Below are positions 34,345-43,740 of a DNA stretch of 43,942 bases, piece after piece. The DNA comes from Lachnospiraceae bacterium (GTDB lineage: Bacteria > Bacillota > Clostridia > Lachnospirales > Lachnospiraceae). The stretch lies in assembly GCA_017465845.1 (NCBI GenBank), contig JAFTVH010000190.1, positions 1 to 43,942 on the forward strand, given 5' to 3'. A program made the translations under genes and the position numbers. The notes under the pieces are model-generated. The model did not search any database and was not told where the DNA came from. It saw nothing but the letters and a program-made list of their open reading frames with translations. The first letter of the stretch is position 1. Each line of letters opens with the position of its first letter.

Positions 34345-36438
34345 ATGAATGTTTACACAACTGACAAAATTCGTAACGTAGTATTATTAGGACACGGTGG
34401 TGCAGGTAAGACCAGTCTGGCAGAAGCATTTGCATATCTGTCCGGTATTACATCCAGAATGGGCAAAGTGTCCGATGGAAATACAGTCAGCGATTACAGT
34501 AAGGAAGAACAGAAGAGACAGTTCTCAATCAGTACCTCCGTTATTCCGATTGAATGGGAAGGCTACAAGATCAATATTCTGGATACACCCGGTTATTTTG
34601 ACTTTGTTGGCGAAGTAGAAGAAGCAGTGAGTGCAGCAGGTGCTGCGATTATCGTTGTAAACGGTAAGTCCGGTATCGAAGTAGGTACTCAGAAAGCGTG
34701 GGAGCTGTGTGAAAAATATAAGCTGCCCAGAATCATTTATGTATCCAACATGGACGTAGATAATGCTTCCTTCCGTCAGGTAGTGGAAGATATGACCAAC
34801 CTGTATGGTAAGAAGATGGCACCGTTCCATCTGCCTATCCGTGAGAACGAGAAATTCGTAGGTTACGTTAATGTTATTGCTGAGACCGGTAACAGATGGC
34901 AGGGCAAGGAAGTAGTTCTCTGTGATATTCCTGATTATTCCAGACCGAACCTGCAGTTGTGCCGTGATACTCTGATGGAAGCAGTAGCTGAGACGAGTGA
35001 AGAGTTCATGGAGAGATATTTCAGCGGTGAGACTTTCTCTGAGGCTGAAATCCGTGCCGCTCTGCGTACCAACGTATGTGACGGCAGCATCGTTCCTATG
35101 ACCATGGGTTCCAATGTTCTGTGCCAGGGTATGTACACGCTGCTTGACGATATCATCAAGTACCTGCCAAGTCCTGAGAACCGTGAAGTAGCCGGTATCA
35201 ATATGAAGACCAATGAAATCTATCATGCTGATTATGACTTTGCCAAAGCGAAATCTGCATACATCTGGAAGACCATCGTGGATCCTTTCATTGGAAAGTA
35301 CTCCCTGATCAAGGTAAATTCCGGTGTTATCAAGACCGATGATCTGATTTATAATGTTGACCGCGATATCGAAGAGAAGGTTGGTAAGATTTATGTGCTT
35401 CAAGGCAACAAGCCCATTGAAGTACCTGAACTTCATGCAGGTGATATCGGTGCACTGGCTAAGCTGACCGCAGCCCGTACCGGCAACAGCCTTTCTACCA
35501 AGGCGACCACCATTAAGTTCGGTAAGTTTGAAATCTCTACACCTTATACATACATGCGTTACAAGCCTAAAAATAAAGCTGACGTGGATAAGATTTCCCA
35601 GGCTCTGCAGAAGATTACCCATGAAGATCAGACCATTAAGGTGGTTAATGATTCTGAGAACAGACAGATGTTATTGTACGGTATGGGTGACCAGCATCTG
35701 GAGATCATCGCCAGCAAGCTGCTTAACGAGTACAAGGTAGAAGTAGAACTGGCTAAGCCTAAGATTGCTTACAGAGAGACCATTAAGAAGACTTCTGATG
35801 TAGAATATAAGTATAAGAAGCAGACCGGCGGACATGGACAGTATGGTCACGTTAAGATGCGCTTCTCCGCTTCCGGCGATTTGGAGACGCCTTATGTATT
35901 CGAACAGGAAGTAGTAGGCGGTGCTGTTCCCAAGAACTTCTATCCCGCAGTAGAAAAGGGACTGCAGGATTCCGTAGTGAAGGGACCTTTGGCTGCATAT
36001 CCTGTAGTTGGTGTGAAAGCTGTTCTGTACGATGGTTCCTACCATCCTGTAGACTCCTCCGAAATGGCATTCAAGATGGCTGCTACTCAGGCCTTCAAGA
36101 AGGGCTTCATGGAGGCAGGACCAATCCTGTTAGAGCCGATTGCATCCATTAAGGTTACCGTTCCAGATGCCTACACCGGAGATGTTATGGGTGATCTGAA
36201 TAAGCGTCGCGGCCGTGTACTTGGTATGAATCCTGCACCCGGCGGAAAGCAGGTTGTTGAAGCTGACATTCCAATGAGCGGACTGTTCGGTTACTGCACA
36301 GACCTTCGTTCAATGACAGGCGGACGTGGAGATTACAGCTATGAATTTGCACGTTATGAGCAGGCTCCAAGTGATGTTCAGGAGAAGGAAGTTGCCGCAA
36401 GAGCTGCAAGTGTCGCTGCAGAGAGTGCGGAAGATTAG
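34345..36438 (+). CDS. Elongation factor G-like GTPase (divergent EF-G paralogue)
   Basis: Five-domain EF-G architecture over 697 aa: G domain, domain II, III (QALQKITHEDQTIKVV), IV (GGHGQYGHVKMRF ... DSSEMAFKMAA) and V (GDVMGDLNKRRGRVLGM). The G domain departs from housekeeping EF-G: G1 is GHGGAGKT (residues 16-23), G2 lacks RGITI (reads RQFSIS), G3 is DTPGY (80-84) with Tyr in place of the catalytic His, and G4 is SNMD (134-137) instead of NKMD. This matches the EF-G-like/EF-G2 group, in which GTPase-stimulated translocation is weak or absent. Start 34345 follows GGAGG; the frame is open back to 34276. A huge palindrome overlaps its stop codon. Confidence 0.9.
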   Translation: MNVYTTDKIRNVVLLGHGGAGKTSLAEAFAYLSGITSRMGKVSDGNTVSDYSKEEQKRQFSISTSVIPIEWEGYKINILDTPGYFDFVGEVEEAVSAAGAAIIVVNGKSGIEVGTQKAWELCEKYKLPRIIYVSNMDVDNASFRQVVEDMTNLYGKKMAPFHLPIRENEKFVGYVNVIAETGNRWQGKEVVLCDIPDYSRPNLQLCRDTLMEAVAETSEEFMERYFSGETFSEAEIRAALRTNVCDGSIVPMTMGSNVLCQGMYTLLDDIIKYLPSPENREVAGINMKTNEIYHADYDFAKAKSAYIWKTIVDPFIGKYSLIKVNSGVIKTDDLIYNVDRDIEEKVGKIYVLQGNKPIEVPELHAGDIGALAKLTAARTGNSLSTKATTIKFGKFEISTPYTYMRYKPKNKADVDKISQALQKITHEDQTIKVVNDSENRQMLLYGMGDQHLEIIASKLLNEYKVEVELAKPKIAYRETIKKTSDVEYKYKKQTGGHGQYGHVKMRFSASGDLETPYVFEQEVVGGAVPKNFYPAVEKGLQDSVVKGPLAAYPVVGVKAVLYDGSYHPVDSSEMAFKMAATQAFKKGFMEAGPILLEPIASIKVTVPDAYTGDVMGDLNKRRGRVLGMNPAPGGKQVVEADIPMSGLFGYCTDLRSMTGGRGDYSYEFARYEQAPSDVQEKEVAARAASVAAESAED

Positions 36439-36723
36439 TTTGAAGAATTGAAGCAAAGGGACGCATAGGGAGAGGCGCACAAACAGGCTTCCTGGTGGCA
36501 GTCACAATGATATAAGATGTACTAACGGCCGGTGATTTTGACAAAGGGCCAGCAACAAAACGCAAAACTCGACGCTTCGCGTCTCAGACAGGTTGCGTTT
36601 TGTTGCTGAAAGTCAAAATTATCGGCCGTAAGTGCATCTAATATCATTGCGTATGCTACCAGGAAGCCTGTTTGTGCGCCTCTCCCTGTGCTGTTTTGCT
36701 TCAATTTATCAAATTAATCTTCC
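36429..36723. repeat. ~295-bp imperfect palindrome
   Basis: Nested pairs: GGAAGATTA (36429-36437) with TAATCTTCC (36715-36723), AATTGAAGCAAA (36446-36457) with TTTGCTTCAATT (36695-36706), a perfect 30-bp arm (36467-36496 with 36658-36687), a 45-bp arm with mismatches (36497-36542 with 36612-36657), and AGCAACAAAACGCAA (36551-36565) with its exact complement (36593-36607). The apex is GACGC-TTC-GCGTC (36571-36583). The left end includes the last codons and stop of the EF-G-like gene. RNA of either strand would form one long hairpin. Confidence 0.9.
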
Positions 36724-37036
36724 TTGTATTTATTAGCTTTAGGGGAAGTATGCGACTATTTTAAATGAAATAGTGAAAAAAAGATGCTTTATGAATTCAC
36801 AGTGCGAAAGTGGTTGAGTAAAAAAAGTGGGGTGCTGTTTTTGCCCACACTTCATTGTGTAGTTTAACACATTCTGAAAATATAGTCTAGTATTTTTTTA
36901 CTTTTCTAGTAAAATAAGGCTATAGCAGAAATGCGATAGGGTTATAGTGAAAACTGTAACCGGAACCCGTTGACCGATATTGAACCAGGTGAGGAACATC
37001 TAAGGCAATATCATTAGACACTTAAGGAGAGAAGAA
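36724..37036 (+). other. upstream region of the HelD fusion gene
   Basis: No gene seen. It is AT-rich with a possible promoter (TTTACT 36897-36902, 18-bp spacer, TATAGC 36921-36926; a TAAAAT at 36910-36915 is an alternative). Downstream is a 9-bp hairpin with a GAAA loop (GGTTATAGT 36940-36948, ACTGTAACC 36953-36961), then a GGAACCCG...AACCAGG segment of unknown fold in the 5' UTR. The ribosome site is AAGGAGAGAAG before ATG 37037. Confidence 0.5.
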
Positions 37037-40000
37037 ATGAGTGTGGAAAAAGAAAGAAGTCTGTCGGATATTTCGCGGCAGGCGGAAGAACGGTATTTGG
37101 AAAAAACACTGGCTGTAGTCTGTAGTAATGTGGAAAAATACGGACGCGATGTGGGGCGGATGAGAGAGGAAATCGATACGATATTGGCGCATTTTCATGA
37201 TGATAATCCGGAACTCATCAATCAGCTGGAAAACACCATCACAATGCATGATCACATGAAACGGGCATTGGAACGAAATGAGAAAGCCCGGAACAAGCCA
37301 TACTTCGGACGAATCGTTTTTCGTGATGAAACGTATGAGAAAGATGAGTCGATTTATATCGGCAAAGGTGGGATTGCAGAGGATGCCACTACTCCTATCG
37401 TTGTGGATTGGAGAGCACCTGTCGCAAATGCGTATTATGAAAACGGGCTGGGGAAATGCAGCTATCCTTCGCCGGGCGGTAAGCAGATTGATATTGATTT
37501 AAAATTGAAGCGTACCTATGAAATAGAGAACGGGGAGCTGCAAAGTTATTTTGACAGTGAAGTGATTGCAAATGATGACCTTCTGACGAAATATCTGGCG
37601 AAGAACAAGCAGGCTGTATTAGGCGAGATTGTTGCAACAATCCAGAAGGAGCAGAATGATATCATTCGTAAATCACCTTATCATAATGTAATCGTACAGG
37701 GAGTGGCAGGTTCCGGTAAGACGACTGTGGCCATGCACAGGATATCTTATATTCTGTATAACTATGCAGAGCGCATCAAACCGGATGATTTTTATATCGT
37801 GGGCAGTAACAGGATTCTGTTGAATTATATTACAGGGGTACTGCCGGATCTGGATGTGTACGGTGTACGGCAGATGACGATGGAGCAGTTGTTTGTCAGG
37901 CTTTTGTACGAAGATTGGGATGATAAGAAATATCGTATCAAAAGTACAGACCAATCCGGTAAAAAAGGTATTGTCAAAGGCGGACTTGCATGGTTTCGTG
38001 ACTTGGAAGCCTATTGTAACAGATTGGAATGGCATACTATCCTGAGGGAATCCATTTATTTGAATCCCAGGCAGTTCGTGGAAGGAATACGGGATGGAAA
38101 GACCGGTGTGTTCGATGAAACGGAAGGGAAGGCTGTAAGTCCCAAAGATTTGGTTCTTCTCGTAGACGGGGAGGCTGTAGAACGATATATCAGGCAGAAT
38201 CCTACTGTTTCCGTGCAAAGTAAGATCGATATGCTGAATGAGCGTTTGATCAACAAGATAAAAGAGGAATTTCTGGGAAAAGGAGTGAAATACACAGAAC
38301 CGGAAAAGAAAGCCATTCTGAAGGCTTATCGCGGAAGATATGGTTCAAATGTCTGGAAAAGATCCATATTTGACATGTATCAGGATTTCCTGCAAAAACA
38401 GATTTCCAAAGGTTATGATGTGGACGTTCCAACGACAGAATTTGATGTATATGATCTGGCTGCACTTGCTTATCTGTATAAGCGGATAAAAGAAACAGAG
38501 GTGATAAGCGAAGCCCATCATGTGGTCATTGACGAGGCTCAGGACTTTGGTATGATGGCGTATAGCGTACTGAAATTCTGCATTAAGGACTGTACCTATA
38601 CGATTATGGGGGATGTCTCACAGAATATCCATTTCGGATACGGACTCAACGACTGGGAAGAATTGAGGAAACTATATCTTACAGACGCAAAATCCAGCTT
38701 TGGCATTCTAAAGAAGAGCTACCGAAACACGGTGGAAATATCTAATTTTGCCACGAATATTCTTCATCATGGGCAATTTTCCATTTATCCTGTGGAACCT
38801 ATCATCAGGCATGGGAACCCGGTAGAAGTAATGAGTTTATGCGACCGAAACGCACTGATTGAGAAAGCCGCAGAAACCTGTAAAGCATGGCAGGAAAAGG
38901 GACTGGATACCATCGCGGTAATCTGCAGAGATCAGGAATCTGCTGCCAAAGCTGCCGAGGAGCTTGGCAAGCTTGTGGAAGTCATGGAAAGTGATCTGGA
39001 AAAAGCGGAATTCGGAAACGGTATCATGGTACTGCCGGTGGAATATACGAAAGGACTGGAATTTGACGCAGTATTGCTTTTGGATCCTACAAGGGAAGAT
39101 TATCCGGTGGAGGATGGACATGCTAAACTGCTTTATGTGGCAGCGACCCGTGCACTGCATGAGTTGAGTGTACTGCATACAGGGAATCTGACAGGGCTTA
39201 TCGCAGATCCGGTGCCGGAGCGAAATATGGGAAACGCAGAGCAGATGCGCAAGCGTAACGGGCCGGACCAAACGCCTTCGAATCCGCACGATGAGACTTT
39301 ACGCAGCAAGGCTTCGACTCCGGATAATAAGGTTTTACGCAATAAGGCTTTGGTTTTGTCCGGCGAATCACAATCGGTATCCCTGAGTAAAAGTACAAAT
39401 CTGAATGAAAAGACGAGGAAAGTAAAAATAAAGCTTTCCGGAAATATTGTCATAAATACATCTGCGCTGACTCATAGGAACGCAATCGATACAGGGACAA
39501 ACAGGGATGTAATTAATTCTGGGACAAGCACCAAAATGGGCTATACCGAAAGCAATGCCAAGCAAAAGTATGGCGCGACAGAACCCAAAACTGATAATTC
39601 CCGTACGGCAAAATTGCAGCAGAGAACGGCTAAAATGCACGAAATGCCTCAAGCTATCTCCGGAAATTCTTTCGGAGATATGCCCACTACTGACAAACTG
39701 CGCCCCGCAGGACACCCTAAAATTGACCTGGCTATCCGTTGGGTAGCAAAGCAGCCCGATGGCCTTTATCTGCAAAGCCGCTATGGCGTGCTGCGGCTGA
39801 GCCCTATCGGCAGTGATATAATCCGTATTACTTTTGCTAAAGACAGTCAGATCGCAGCAGGGGTGCATCCTCAAATTGCAGTACAAAAGCCTTATCCTGC
39901 CTGGATGTACAAAGATACAGCAAAAACAGTAGACTTATTCACAGATGAACTTTACCTGCAGGTTGATAAAGCTACCGGTGCTATCCGATACATGACAAGA

Positions 40001-40402
40001 GATAAGAAGCTGTTGTTGGCGGAACGCAGCAAGGAATGCAGACAGATAGATGCATCGCCCAAAGGGAATAAGCGAAGCTGGTTATATTTAGACTGGCAAA
40101 AAGGAGAAAAACTTTACGGACTTGGGCCGGAGAAAGTGATGAGTGGAAATCTGCGTGGAACGGCGAGATATATTTCCCATGGTATGTCAAATAGCGAAGC
40201 TCCGGAATTACCTTTTATACTTTCGGACAATGGGTATGGAATGGTAATGGCTTCTGATGGTCCTACATTTTGCTGTGATATTTCTTCTTATGGTTCTTAT
40301 ATTTTTACGGAGGTAGCTTCACAAATGGATTTTTACTTTATTGCCGGGAAGAGAACTGCTAATATACTTTCGGCATATGCTTACCTTTGCGGAAAACTTT
40401 AA
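37037..40402 (+). CDS. HelD-type UvrD/Rep helicase fused to a GH31 N-terminal domain
   Basis: Residues 1 to ~735 are a complete HelD-like protein: a long N-terminal coiled coil (1-110), FGRIVFRDE and VVDWRAPVANAYYE, Walker A GVAGSGKTT (222-230), Walker B VVIDEAQDFG (~496), IMGDVSQNIHFGYG, and LLYVAATRALHELSVL near 698. HelD recycles stalled RNA polymerase in Firmicutes. Residues ~735-890 are a Ser/Thr/Asn/Lys-rich linker with short repeats (LRSKAS, LRNKAL). Residues ~892-1121 resemble the N-terminal beta-sandwich of GH31 glycosidases: YGVLRLSPIGSDIIRITF, KLYGLGPEKV, NLRGTARY, PFILSDNGYGM and, at the end, DFYFIAGKRTANILSAYAYL, which is exactly where the catalytic barrel should begin but is absent. 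One uninterrupted frame. Usual HelD proteins are 680-780 aa, so this one is ~350 aa too long. Confidence 0.85.
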   Translation: MSVEKERSLSDISRQAEERYLEKTLAVVCSNVEKYGRDVGRMREEIDTILAHFHDDNPELINQLENTITMHDHMKRALERNEKARNKPYFGRIVFRDETYEKDESIYIGKGGIAEDATTPIVVDWRAPVANAYYENGLGKCSYPSPGGKQIDIDLKLKRTYEIENGELQSYFDSEVIANDDLLTKYLAKNKQAVLGEIVATIQKEQNDIIRKSPYHNVIVQGVAGSGKTTVAMHRISYILYNYAERIKPDDFYIVGSNRILLNYITGVLPDLDVYGVRQMTMEQLFVRLLYEDWDDKKYRIKSTDQSGKKGIVKGGLAWFRDLEAYCNRLEWHTILRESIYLNPRQFVEGIRDGKTGVFDETEGKAVSPKDLVLLVDGEAVERYIRQNPTVSVQSKIDMLNERLINKIKEEFLGKGVKYTEPEKKAILKAYRGRYGSNVWKRSIFDMYQDFLQKQISKGYDVDVPTTEFDVYDLAALAYLYKRIKETEVISEAHHVVIDEAQDFGMMAYSVLKFCIKDCTYTIMGDVSQNIHFGYGLNDWEELRKLYLTDAKSSFGILKKSYRNTVEISNFATNILHHGQFSIYPVEPIIRHGNPVEVMSLCDRNALIEKAAETCKAWQEKGLDTIAVICRDQESAAKAAEELGKLVEVMESDLEKAEFGNGIMVLPVEYTKGLEFDAVLLLDPTREDYPVEDGHAKLLYVAATRALHELSVLHTGNLTGLIADPVPERNMGNAEQMRKRNGPDQTPSNPHDETLRSKASTPDNKVLRNKALVLSGESQSVSLSKSTNLNEKTRKVKIKLSGNIVINTSALTHRNAIDTGTNRDVINSGTSTKMGYTESNAKQKYGATEPKTDNSRTAKLQQRTAKMHEMPQAISGNSFGDMPTTDKLRPAGHPKIDLAIRWVAKQPDGLYLQSRYGVLRLSPIGSDIIRITFAKDSQIAAGVHPQIAVQKPYPAWMYKDTAKTVDLFTDELYLQVDKATGAIRYMTRDKKLLLAERSKECRQIDASPKGNKRSWLYLDWQKGEKLYGLGPEKVMSGNLRGTARYISHGMSNSEAPELPFILSDNGYGMVMASDGPTFCCDISSYGSYIFTEVASQMDFYFIAGKRTANILSAYAYLCGKL

Positions 40403-40468: not shown

Positions 40469-40829
40469 CGGATAAAATCTGGAAAAATTAAAATTTTATC
40501 CGTTGGCATCGCTCTAAAATAGGGATTCGCGGCGGATAAAACTGGAAAAAATGAACTTTTTATCCGTTGGTATTGCTTAAAATGGGCGTTTGTAGCAGAT
40601 AAAATTAGAAAAAATAAAGTTTTTATCCGTTGGCATCGGCGGATAAAACTGGGATAAATAGAGCTTTTATCCGTTAGTATCGCCCTGAAATGGTGATTTC
40701 CTTCGGATGAAACTGGGGAAAATGGAGTTTTTATCCGTTGATATCACTTTAAAATGGTGATATTCGTCAGATGAAACTGGGAAAAATAGAGTTTTTATCC
40801 GTTGGTATCACTATAAAATGGTTAAAATG
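40469..40829. repeat. tandem array of six ~64-bp hairpin units
   Basis: Units start at 40469, 40533, 40596, 40640, 40704 and 40768: periods of 64, 63, 44, 64 and 64 bp. Each unit has GGATAAAA (or GGATGAAA/AGATAAAA) and, about 14-17 nt later, TTTTATCCG, making a hairpin, then GTTGGTATCGC-type sequence and AAAATGG. The right arm is nearly invariant while the left arm varies, mostly to G-U-compatible changes. Unit 3 lost ~20 bp of the linker. Non-coding in all frames as far as I can read. Confidence 0.9.
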
Positions 40830-40968: not shown

Positions 40969-41288
40969 AGTTTCAGAAGAAATACAGCGAAAGCGAAGAA
41001 GAGGAAGAGTAGGAATCCCAAGTTCCCAGAGAGCTGCCGGTTGGTGAGAGGCAGCAGCGTAAGGTTTTGAACTGGCCCCGGAGCTTCTGCAGGGAAAGCA
41101 AAGAGAAGTGATGTAAATATCAGCTTTGTGTAAGTAGTTGCAGGCGGGTTCTCCCGTTACAGAGAGTCAAAGTGCACAGAATGCGTCTGCAATAGCAGTT
41201 AATGCTGCAGTCATCCTGTGAAGTAGAGTGGTACCACGGAAAAGTAAGGCCCTTTCGTCTCTATATGCGAAAGGGCTTATATTATTTT
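40969..41288 (+). promoter_or_regulatory. T-box riboswitch for tRNA-Leu
   Basis: T-box core GTGGTACCACGG with TGGT at 41229-41232. In Stem I, GAACTGGCCCCGGAGC places the specifier CTG (41072-41074) directly after GAA and five bases before GGAGC, matching leucine and the leuS gene downstream. The distal loop has GGTTGGTGAG (41039-41048). Uncharged tRNA-Leu reading CUG would turn the gene on. Confidence 0.93.
41249..41288 (+). terminator. T-box controlled terminator of leuS
   Basis: GCCCTTTCG (41249-41257) and CGAAAGGGC (41268-41276), followed by TTATATTATTTT. Confidence 0.88.
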
Positions 41289-41325: not shown

Positions 41326-43740
41326 ATGGCAGTACCATACAACCACAAAGAAGTGGAACAGAAATGGCAGGCTGTCTGGGATAATGAGAAAGCTTTTGCA
41401 GTTTCCAATGATTATTCCAAGCCTAAATATTATGCATTGGTAGAATTCCCTTATCCTTCAGGACAGGGTCTTCATGTAGGTCATCCGAGACCTTATACCG
41501 CACTGGACATCGTAGCACGTAAGAGAAGAATGCAGGGCTACAATGTACTTTATCCTATGGGATGGGATGCTTTCGGTCTTCCTACCGAGAACTATGCGAT
41601 CAAGAACCACATTCATCCCAAGATTGTAACCAAGAATAACGTAGCACGTTTTAAGAACCAGCTTCATTCTCTCGGATATTCCTTTGACTGGGACAGAGAG
41701 ATTAACACCACCGATCCTGAGTACTATAAGTGGACCCAGTGGATCTTCTTAAAGCTTTTCAAAGCAGGCCTTGCTTACAAGAGTGAGATGCCTATCAACT
41801 GGTGTACCTCCTGTAAAGTAGGTCTGGCTAACGAGGAAGTAGTGAATGGTGTCTGCGAGCGCTGCGGCGCTGAAGTTGTAAGAAAAGTTAAGAGCCAGTG
41901 GATGCTTAAGATTACAGAATATGCAGATAAGCTGATTCAGGATCTTGATACCGTTGATTATATCGAGAAAGTAAAAGTATCCCAGAAGAACTGGATCGGT
42001 AAATCCCAGGGTGCTGAGGTAGACTTTGCTCTTACCGGCAAGGAAGATAAGCTTCGCATTTATACTACCAGACCGGACACACTTTTCGGTGCAACCTACA
42101 TGGTAGTCAGCCCGGAGCATCCTCTGATTGACAAATATCAGGCTGAGATCAAGAACTGGGACGATGTAGTAGCCTATCGTGAAATGGCTGCCAGAAAGTC
42201 TGATTTCGAGCGTACCGAGCTCGCAAAAGATAAGACAGGTGTCATGATCGACGGTCTTACCGCTACCAATCCTGTAAACGGCAAAGAGATTCCTATTTGG
42301 ATTTCCGACTATGTGCTCATGACTTATGGTACTGGTGCTATCATGGCTGTACCTGCTCATGATGAGAGAGACTGGGATTTTGCTAAGAAATTCAATATGC
42401 CTATCATCGAGGTTGTAGCAGGCAGCCCTGTCAGCGTACAGGAAGCTGTATATACCGATGTTGCGACCGGTACTTTGGTGAATTCCGAGTTCCTGAACGG
42501 ATTGTCCGTTGCAGAAGCAAAGGAAAAGATCATTGCATGGCTTGAGGAAAAGGGAATCGGTACCAGCAAGACCAACTTCAAGCTTCGTGACTGGGTATTC
42601 TCCAGACAGCGTTACTGGGGTGAGCCTATTCCTATCGTAAAATGTGAGAAGTGCGGTTTCGTGCCTATCGATGAAAGTGAACTTCCTCTGGAGCTTCCTG
42701 AGGTAGAAAGCTATATGCCTACCGACAACGGGGAATCTCCTTTGGCTGCAATGACTGACTGGGTGAACACCACTTGCCCTTGCTGTGGCGGTCCTGCACA
42801 GAGAGAGACTGATACCATGCCTCAGTGGGCAGGTTCTTCCTGGTATTTCTTAAGATATACCGATCCTCACAACACAGAAGCTCTTGCAAGCAAGGAAGCA
42901 CTGAATTACTGGATGCCTGTTGACTGGTACAATGGCGGTATGGAGCACACCACACTGCACTTACTTTACTCCAGATTCTGGCATAAGTTCCTCTTCGACC
43001 AGGGAGAAGTACCTTGTCCCGAACCTTACCAGAAGAGAACCAGCCACGGTATGATCCTTGGTTCCAACGGAGAAAAGATGTCTAAGTCCCGCGGAAACGT
43101 TGTAAATCCTGATGATATCGTACAGGATTACGGTGCAGATACGCTTCGTACCTACGAAATGTTCATCGGTGCATTTGATCTGAGTGCTGCATGGAGCGAG
43201 GATGGTGTTAAGGGATGCCGCAGATTCCTTGAAAGAGTATGGAAGCTTCAGGATATCCTGGTAGACGGTGACGGCTACAGCGCTGACCTTGAGACCAAGA
43301 TGCATCAGACTATCAAGAAGGTAAGCAGCGACTTCGAGAACCTGAAGTATAATACCGCTATCGCAGCTATGATGTCCTTAATTAACGACATCTATAAGAA
43401 GAATGCAATTACAAGAGGCGAATATAAGACCTTATTGACACTCCTTAATCCGGTAGCACCTCATATCACTGAGGAATTGTGGCAGACAGCCGGTTACGAA
43501 GGCAGAGTATACCAGACCTCATGGCCCGAGTATGATGAAGCTAAGACCGTGGAAGCTACTGTAGAAATCGTGGTACAGATAAATGGTAAGAATCGTCTGA
43601 CCATGAATATCGGTAAGGATGATGCGAAGGATGCAGTTATCGCTGCAGCGAAGGAAGCATTAGGAGATAAATTGACAGGAACGATTGTGAAAGAGATTTA
43701 TGTTCCCGGAAGATTGGTAAATATTGTTGCGAAACCGTAA
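41326..43740 (+). CDS. leuS: Leucyl-tRNA synthetase
   Basis: Class I synthetase charging tRNA-Leu, 804 aa, full length. The HIGH-type motif is in [20 protein letters not shown] (residues ~45-64), the zinc ribbon follows ([20 protein letters not shown]), the CP1 editing domain contains [13 protein letters not shown] and [17 protein letters not shown], and the KMSKS loop is [13 protein letters not shown] near residue 585. The C-terminal anticodon-stem domain ends with [11 protein letters not shown]. The start is set by GGAGGTAAAAAAGTT. It is a single-gene unit between its T-box and its terminator. Confidence 0.97.

Follow-up and report, generated by a model that had tools for sequence, protein, structure and literature searches.

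A HelD-type motor protein carries a GH31 N-terminal beta-sandwich domain in a lineage of Lachnospiraceae

Results

A single open frame joins a HelD motor to a GH31 N-terminal domain

We analyzed a 43,942-nucleotide stretch of DNA from a Lachnospiraceae bacterium (contig JAFTVH010000190.1, assembly GCA_017465845.1; hereafter the window) and focused on one forward-strand open reading frame (ORF) at positions 37037-40402, here called the fusion gene, that encodes 1121 amino acids (aa) without an internal stop (Table 1). A first-pass annotation of this DNA had proposed that the gene fuses the RNA polymerase-recycling helicase HelD to the N-terminal domain of GH31 glycosidases with a clean boundary between the parts, and the fusion proved to be real. 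A Pfam search of the protein returned pieces of UvrD-type families followed by PF13802, the GH31 N-terminal domain, at residues 919-1071 with an E-value of 5.6e-8 and a score exceeding the gathering score. The likeness to GH31 N-domains held up in structure prediction: in a structural comparison, the model of the C-terminal domain reproduced the beta-sandwich fold of PF13802. In the structural alignment (VIA-align, restricted to Foldseek's top 1000 chains), the rows of endoplasmic reticulum glucosidase II covered model residues 1 or 5 to 245 and therefore may include a structural counterpart of the cap (residues 879-893). No GH31 barrel family appeared in the Pfam list of the protein up to an E-value of 1. 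A barrel concealed in another downstream frame was ruled out, since no ORF of at least 50 aa was listed between 40403 and 41325, the interval from the stop to leuS. Because the fusion protein has neither the catalytic (beta/alpha)8 barrel nor the catalytic Asp residues found there, it is not a GH31 enzyme.

Table 1 Features of the fusion gene (window coordinates; pLDDT, predicted local distance difference test)
Feature	Positions	Strand	Basis
Ribosome-binding site AAGGAG of the fusion gene	37024..37029	+	read directly; 7 bases 5' of the ATG at 37037
HelD motor, residues 1-728	37037..39220	+	matches B. subtilis HelD 6wvk; HelD tree
N-terminal coiled coil, residues 14-84	37076..37288	+	full-length model, with helices at 14-51 and 58-84
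Acidic tip HDDNPEL, residues 54-60	37196..37216	+	sequence
Walker A GVAGSGKTT, residues 222-230	37700..37726	+	sequence; 30-row alignment
DEAQDF Walker B-type motif, residues 499-504	38531..38548	+	sequence; 30-row alignment
Disordered basic linker, residues 729-876	39221..39664	+	pLDDT <50 over 729-875
GH31 N-terminal beta-sandwich domain, residues 877-1121, without catalytic barrel	39665..40399	+	
Cap FGDMPTTDKLRPAGH, residues 879-893, characteristic of fused domains	39671..39715	+	pLDDT 91 / 82 in two blocks
Degenerate loop HGMSNSEAPEL, residues 1048-1058	40178..40210	+	where GH31 has its conserved loop and invariant Asn

The motor retains the hallmarks of HelD

Residues 59-288 and 473-723 matched Bacillus subtilis HelD (6wvk) with an E-value of 1.6e-72. 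The score against the NCBIfam model NF041464 (HelD_BACSU) was 352.3 bits, below the curated cut-off of 419, and the protein was accordingly classed as a HelD homologue rather than a HelD_BACSU equivalog. Judged by its motor homology, SF1 motifs and arm, it is a HelD homologue of the class I Firmicutes type. In a 30-row alignment, G222 and A224-T230 of Walker A and D499-D503 of the DEAQDF motif were invariant. Across the 77 distinct fused ORFs described below, DEAQDF was found in 70, TIQxEQN in 76 and the exact GVAGSGKTT in 62. The N-terminal coiled coil is the putative counterpart of the secondary-channel arm of HelD (the Pike), whose tip in B. subtilis bears D56, D57 and E60 (PMC7749165; papers given by PMC number are cited here for portions of their text). 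A simple tip pattern missed part of the 74 complete fused ORFs, many of which have other acidic tips. The HelD part as a whole carries a net charge of -19 to -20.

The fused protein was the only HelD found in its own genome, where five further matches were weak (19-46 bits) and were taken for other helicases, and it was also the only one found in a one-contig genome of the genus. The motor motifs, the acidic arm tip and the status of sole HelD in these two genomes argue that the core job of the protein is probably RNA polymerase recycling, as described for HelD in PMC7749165. A search for the delta subunit of RNA polymerase, made with the profile TIGR04567 only, gave no match in any of the 61 genus genomes, the window's own included, while the B. 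subtilis and L. lactis controls were both detected.

The fusion recurs in relatives within the family

Among the 61 genomes of the genus, 47 had some match to the fusion protein and 14 had none. We compared 41 genus loci, comprising 40 regions chosen from the matches and the window's own locus; outside this set stand four genomes whose HelD looks unfused and three whose matches are weak or confined to GH31. Both parts lay in one frame of 993-1265 aa at 30 of the 41 loci. The remainder were two contig pieces of one genome (G036), eight unfused HelDs of about 40% identity, and one locus of genome G042 (L068/L279) that encodes an 806-aa HelD with a linker-like tail and no GH31 domain. From the public genome collection, we took the best 80 of 180 confirmed relatives of the C-terminal domain, chosen by similarity and overlapping the genus set. 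These comprised 62 single-frame fusions (three of them cut at the 5' end), 15 free GH31 genes, two pieces at contig ends and one split frame (L125). The first-pass annotation had named separate genes or a break at the locus as signs of a scar or an assembly error, and this expectation was not borne out. After identical proteins had been merged, 77 distinct fused ORFs were left, including three with an open 5' end; they come from isolates as well as metagenome-assembled genomes (MAGs). Named carriers include Acetatifactor muris DSM 23669, Eisenbergiella porci, Lachnospiraceae bacterium 10-1 and Bacterium D16-50.

In a sample of the family (299 genomes from 298 genera), 86 genomes had some match to the domain model and 24, counted from the listing, carried the fused type. 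In 21 of these the open frame exceeded 1000 aa and the HelD part was observed, or the carrier was the window itself; G090, G131 and G232 had no open frame of this length, and in G232 the frame was split. The domain was matched in 40 of 341 genomes of a class sample (E 1e-6) and in 10 of 398 of a phylum sample (E 1e-12). Leaving aside the window's own genome, none of these matches begins before profile position 22, their frames measure 274-845 aa, and we take them for free GH31 genes. No fusion beyond the family was recognized in the class and phylum samples, which are samples rather than exhaustive surveys.

A probable single gain of the domain, followed by purifying selection

A HelD tree was built from 76 selected rows by a quick method, with support from the Shimodaira-Hasegawa-like approximate likelihood ratio test only. 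In it, all 51 fused rows fell within one clade of 53 (support 99) whose two other members were the split-frame G232 and the unfused G042. A set of four unfused HelDs (support 98) adjoined this clade under midpoint rooting. In a GH31 N-domain tree of 66 rows, built by a careful method, the 36 fused rows formed one clade (100/100) on a long stem, and the nearest free relatives, 36-37% identical, were GH31 genes from uncultured Clostridiaceae and Defluviitaleaceae genomes. Both trees are compatible with one fusion event and at least one loss, the GH31 N-domain having been acquired once, within the Lachnospiraceae, behind a long disordered tether. A donor GH31 gene beside an unfused near-sister helD was sought at five loci of 12-19 kb (L274-L278), none of which had a GH31 N-domain match near helD.

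We estimated the ratio of nonsynonymous to synonymous substitution rates (dN/dS) by the Nei-Gojobori method for 15 pairs of fused genes. The values were 0.077-0.169 for the C-terminal domain (dS finite in 13 of the 15 pairs), 0.032-0.132 for HelD (14 finite) and 0.223-0.760 for the linker (12 finite). When the window was compared with L091, its closest relative, dS of the domain was saturated, so there is no omega for the window's own domain. The domain is kept by purifying selection, at values near those of the motor, while the tether drifts. Together with the 77 distinct ORFs, these ratios uphold the earlier suggestion that this is a maintained protein. In one pair (L118/L119), dS was 0.80 between the HelD parts compared to 0.07 between the C-terminal domains, and a second pair (L149/L150) had a similar contrast (2.39 compared to 0.47); these differences suggest recombination that swapped the domain alone.

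The linker is basic and variable. Residues 736-880 (BLAST limits) have a net charge of +12 and a pI of 10.2. The 77 linkers span 78-254 aa, 72 of them are net positive, and their mean charge is +6.8. An acidic, delta-like tail was rejected because the linker is basic. A short motif like RKKISIVQN recurs in the drifting linkers of L091, L092, L100, L104, L105, L110, L157 and others. It outscored shuffled linkers, a result inflated by related sequences, and the window's linker matches it poorly; we did not use it as evidence.

Fused domains differ from free GH31 N-domains

In free domains, the segment that leads up to the conserved Pro-x-x-x-Ser strand is 32 residues long and has an Asn in 31 of 31 cases. 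By contrast, the corresponding segment in fused domains ranges from 29 to 67 residues, and the loop column holds Asn in 4 of 77 and a gap in 29. Of five solved GH31 chains compared, the four alpha-xylosidases have the Asn aligned, and the loop of the remaining chain, a dextranase, is longer. The window's version of this loop is the least confident block of the domain model (pLDDT 66). Residues of the N-domain contact sugar or inhibitor in some GH31 enzymes: in LlGH31_u1, Tyr99 provides a sugar contact from the neighboring protomer (PMC9061262), and in NtMGAM, Asp203, inside the stated N-domain range of 52-269, anchors the inhibitor (PMC8435576). By analogy with these enzymes, the conserved loop is probably the sugar-facing one.

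The fused domains are also basic. Their mean net charge is +5.2 (97 segments) compared to -6.8 for free domains (32), and both fused subclades are basic. Net charge carries little evidential weight, and the relatedness of the rows makes the p-value of this contrast too favorable. Finally, the strict cap pattern FGDMPxxxLRPxGH was present in 68 of 77 fused domains, and its P-x-G-H part occurred in none of 31 free domains. The cap and several residues atypical of GH31 are conserved at 90% or more in fused domains.

Neighboring genes and repeats

The genes that flank the fusion differ from locus to locus. Of the neighbor groups that could be named, the largest were hisB-, hisF- and hisD-like, at 17-18 of 77 loci, and a MoxR-like group was present at 14. 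No sugar gene was recognized among the 14 largest groups of neighboring ORFs, some of which are unnamed and some probably spurious frames. A search of 28 window ORFs against 90 loci (E 1e-10, 40% coverage; flanks of about 3-8 kb, less at contig ends) gave no matches, and a control confirmed that the search was working. Within these short flanks, a conserved operon with the genes for elongation factor G (EF-G) and leuS was thus rejected.

Several other elements lie close to the gene. Between the EF-G-like gene and helD, positions 36429-36723 form a near-perfect foldback of about 290 bp with arms that are 88-100% complementary and a DNA fold z of -21. Eight further places in the same genome, including one short stretch, resemble it at 73-84% identity, and it looks like a repeat of the miniature inverted-repeat transposable element type. 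On the 3' side of helD, at positions 40471-40822, a 64-bp unit is repeated five to six times in tandem. With at most 2 mismatches allowed, the core of this unit occurs 46 times in its own genome (control 0) and forms clusters in which the spacing is mostly 64 bp. Two hairpins were predicted in two of the four units folded, and the array had no Rfam match at the gathering score. Finally, a T-box leader (RF00230, 123 bits) occupies positions 40987-41265, upstream of leuS at 41326.

Discussion

The protein described here is a lineage-specific form of the RNA polymerase-recycling motor HelD. The motor would work as B. subtilis HelD does: the Pike would enter the secondary channel and the second arm the main channel, nucleic acids would be expelled from the polymerase, and ATP would then lead to HelD release. 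What the C-terminal domain adds is the least certain part of this explanation. We put at about even the chance that it acts as a basic arm on a tether, with RNA polymerase, the acidic HelD motor, or the expelled DNA or RNA as its binding partner; such an arm may help to recruit, hold or time HelD where no delta subunit was found. That the beta-sandwich has become a nucleic-acid- or polymerase-binding arm as an independent solution to the job done by delta or by the branched arm of mycobacterial HelD is possible, though on balance doubtful. The domain would not be a sugar sensor. The polymer binding raised in the first-pass annotation survives if the polymer is a nucleic acid, while its sugar side has weakened.

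Several observations weigh against this explanation. The full-length model left the C-terminal domain unplaced (predicted template modeling score 0.40). An arm in place of delta might be expected to have an acidic tail, since the B. subtilis delta tail carries a charge of -47, and the one found here is basic. Genus genomes with an unfused HelD also had no delta match, so the absence of delta does not explain the fusion. Among the matches listed, which reach down to about E 1e-6, at least 12 of 31 fused genus genomes had a second HelD-like protein. The G042 lineage lost the domain and kept HelD with a tail that is still linker-like, and the domain is therefore dispensable in that lineage. Also on this side are the four fused domains that have Asn in the loop column, which is gappy, and the relatedness of the rows behind the charge contrast.

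The main rival, which we consider rather improbable, is that the domain is an assembly or docking module that dimerizes HelD or the HelD-polymerase complex for idle storage, or that folds back and inhibits HelD. Consistent with this idea, the beta-sheet of the N-domain takes part in the hexamer contacts of LlGH31_u1 (PMC9061262), and RNAP-delta-HelD dimers, proposed to serve hibernation, have been described (PMC7749165). The arm is basic and the HelD part acidic, and the domain has a conserved cap that is modeled with fair order. However, HelD has no direct part in the dimer interface as published in PMC7749165, and linkers that range from 78 to 254 aa are easier to reconcile with a loose tether than with a fixed dock. 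It is less probable still that the domain binds a sugar or sugar phosphate and couples carbon state to polymerase recycling, as the first-pass annotation had entertained. Homology and fold clearly mark it as a GH31 N-domain, and Tyr99 of LlGH31_u1 and Asp203 of NtMGAM illustrate that such domains can touch sugar or inhibitor; in those enzymes, however, the contacts are accessory to a barrel that is missing here. The sensor has been weakened further by the degenerate loop of variable length from which the Asn is nearly gone, by the reversed charge, and by the lack of a recognized sugar gene in the 14 largest neighbor groups, even if some of those groups are unnamed.

A domain without a partner, kept only for folding or for stabilizing the protein, appears very unlikely. 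The loss in G042 and the split frames in G232 and L125 indicate that loss of the domain is tolerated in places. Such a passenger would not be expected to evolve under constraint near that of the motor, to conserve a cap and residues not typical of GH31, or to persist in 24 genomes of a sample that spans 298 genera. As for a recent deletion scar or an assembly artifact that joined helD to a GH31 gene, only the missing barrel speaks for it, and we regard it as almost certainly wrong. The fusion is old, compatible with one origin and under purifying selection, and it recurs in one frame in 77 distinct ORFs from isolates and MAGs. In addition, no other PF13802 match was found in the window's own genome (85% complete), and none of the five unfused near-sister helD genes had a GH31 N-domain nearby. 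The tethered basic arm is the reading that we prefer.

No transcription factor that derives from a GH31 domain is known to us, although our literature search covered HelD with GH31 only. The first-pass annotation knew of no described HelD with a carbohydrate-enzyme domain, and our search likewise found no report of a HelD-GH31 fusion among the papers listed; bioRxiv and most subscription papers were outside its scope. Large HelDs are about 740-850 aa long, with size differences ascribed to the arms (Larsen 2021, PMC8655204). The list in that paper includes one of 872 aa, and its main text, in which "glyco" and "C-terminal" occur 0 times, yielded no such fusion. HelD has been linked to rifampicin resistance (PMC10719064, PMC12802891) and, tentatively, to dormancy (PMC7749165). 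A gut lineage related to Acetatifactor and Eisenbergiella probably recycles its polymerase with a protein that bears a repurposed sugar-enzyme domain, and in some species with the fusion no other HelD was found. The fusion illustrates how a transcription machine acquires a new arm and offers a concrete test case for HelD action in bacteria without delta. It also carries a warning for annotation: these proteins match a glycosidase domain family and yet have no glycosidase active site.

Compared to known systems, the closest counterpart is class I HelD of B. subtilis (PDB 6wvk, 6zca, 6zfb), which shares the motor homology, the acidic-tipped coiled-coil arm, Walker A and DEAQD. Its chain is 774 aa long, and the fusion protein adds a linker of about 150 aa and a beta-sandwich of 245 aa. 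The GH31 alpha-xylosidases (BoGH31A, 5jou/5jov; CjXyl31A, 2xvg; MeXyl31, 5zn6) have the barrel that the fusion protein lacks, and relative to their N-domain the fused domains have mostly lost the loop Asn, are basic rather than acidic, and carry an extra N-terminal cap. RNA polymerase delta, which combines a folded domain with a disordered tail that helps HelD (PMC7749165), may be an analog in architecture; however, delta is a separate subunit with an acidic tail, whereas the arm of the fusion protein is basic and covalently attached. Finally, Mycobacterium smegmatis HelD has extra structure that is said to compensate for a missing delta (PMC7749165). In that protein the extra structure branches off the main-channel arm, whereas in the fusion protein the addition is a separate tethered domain.

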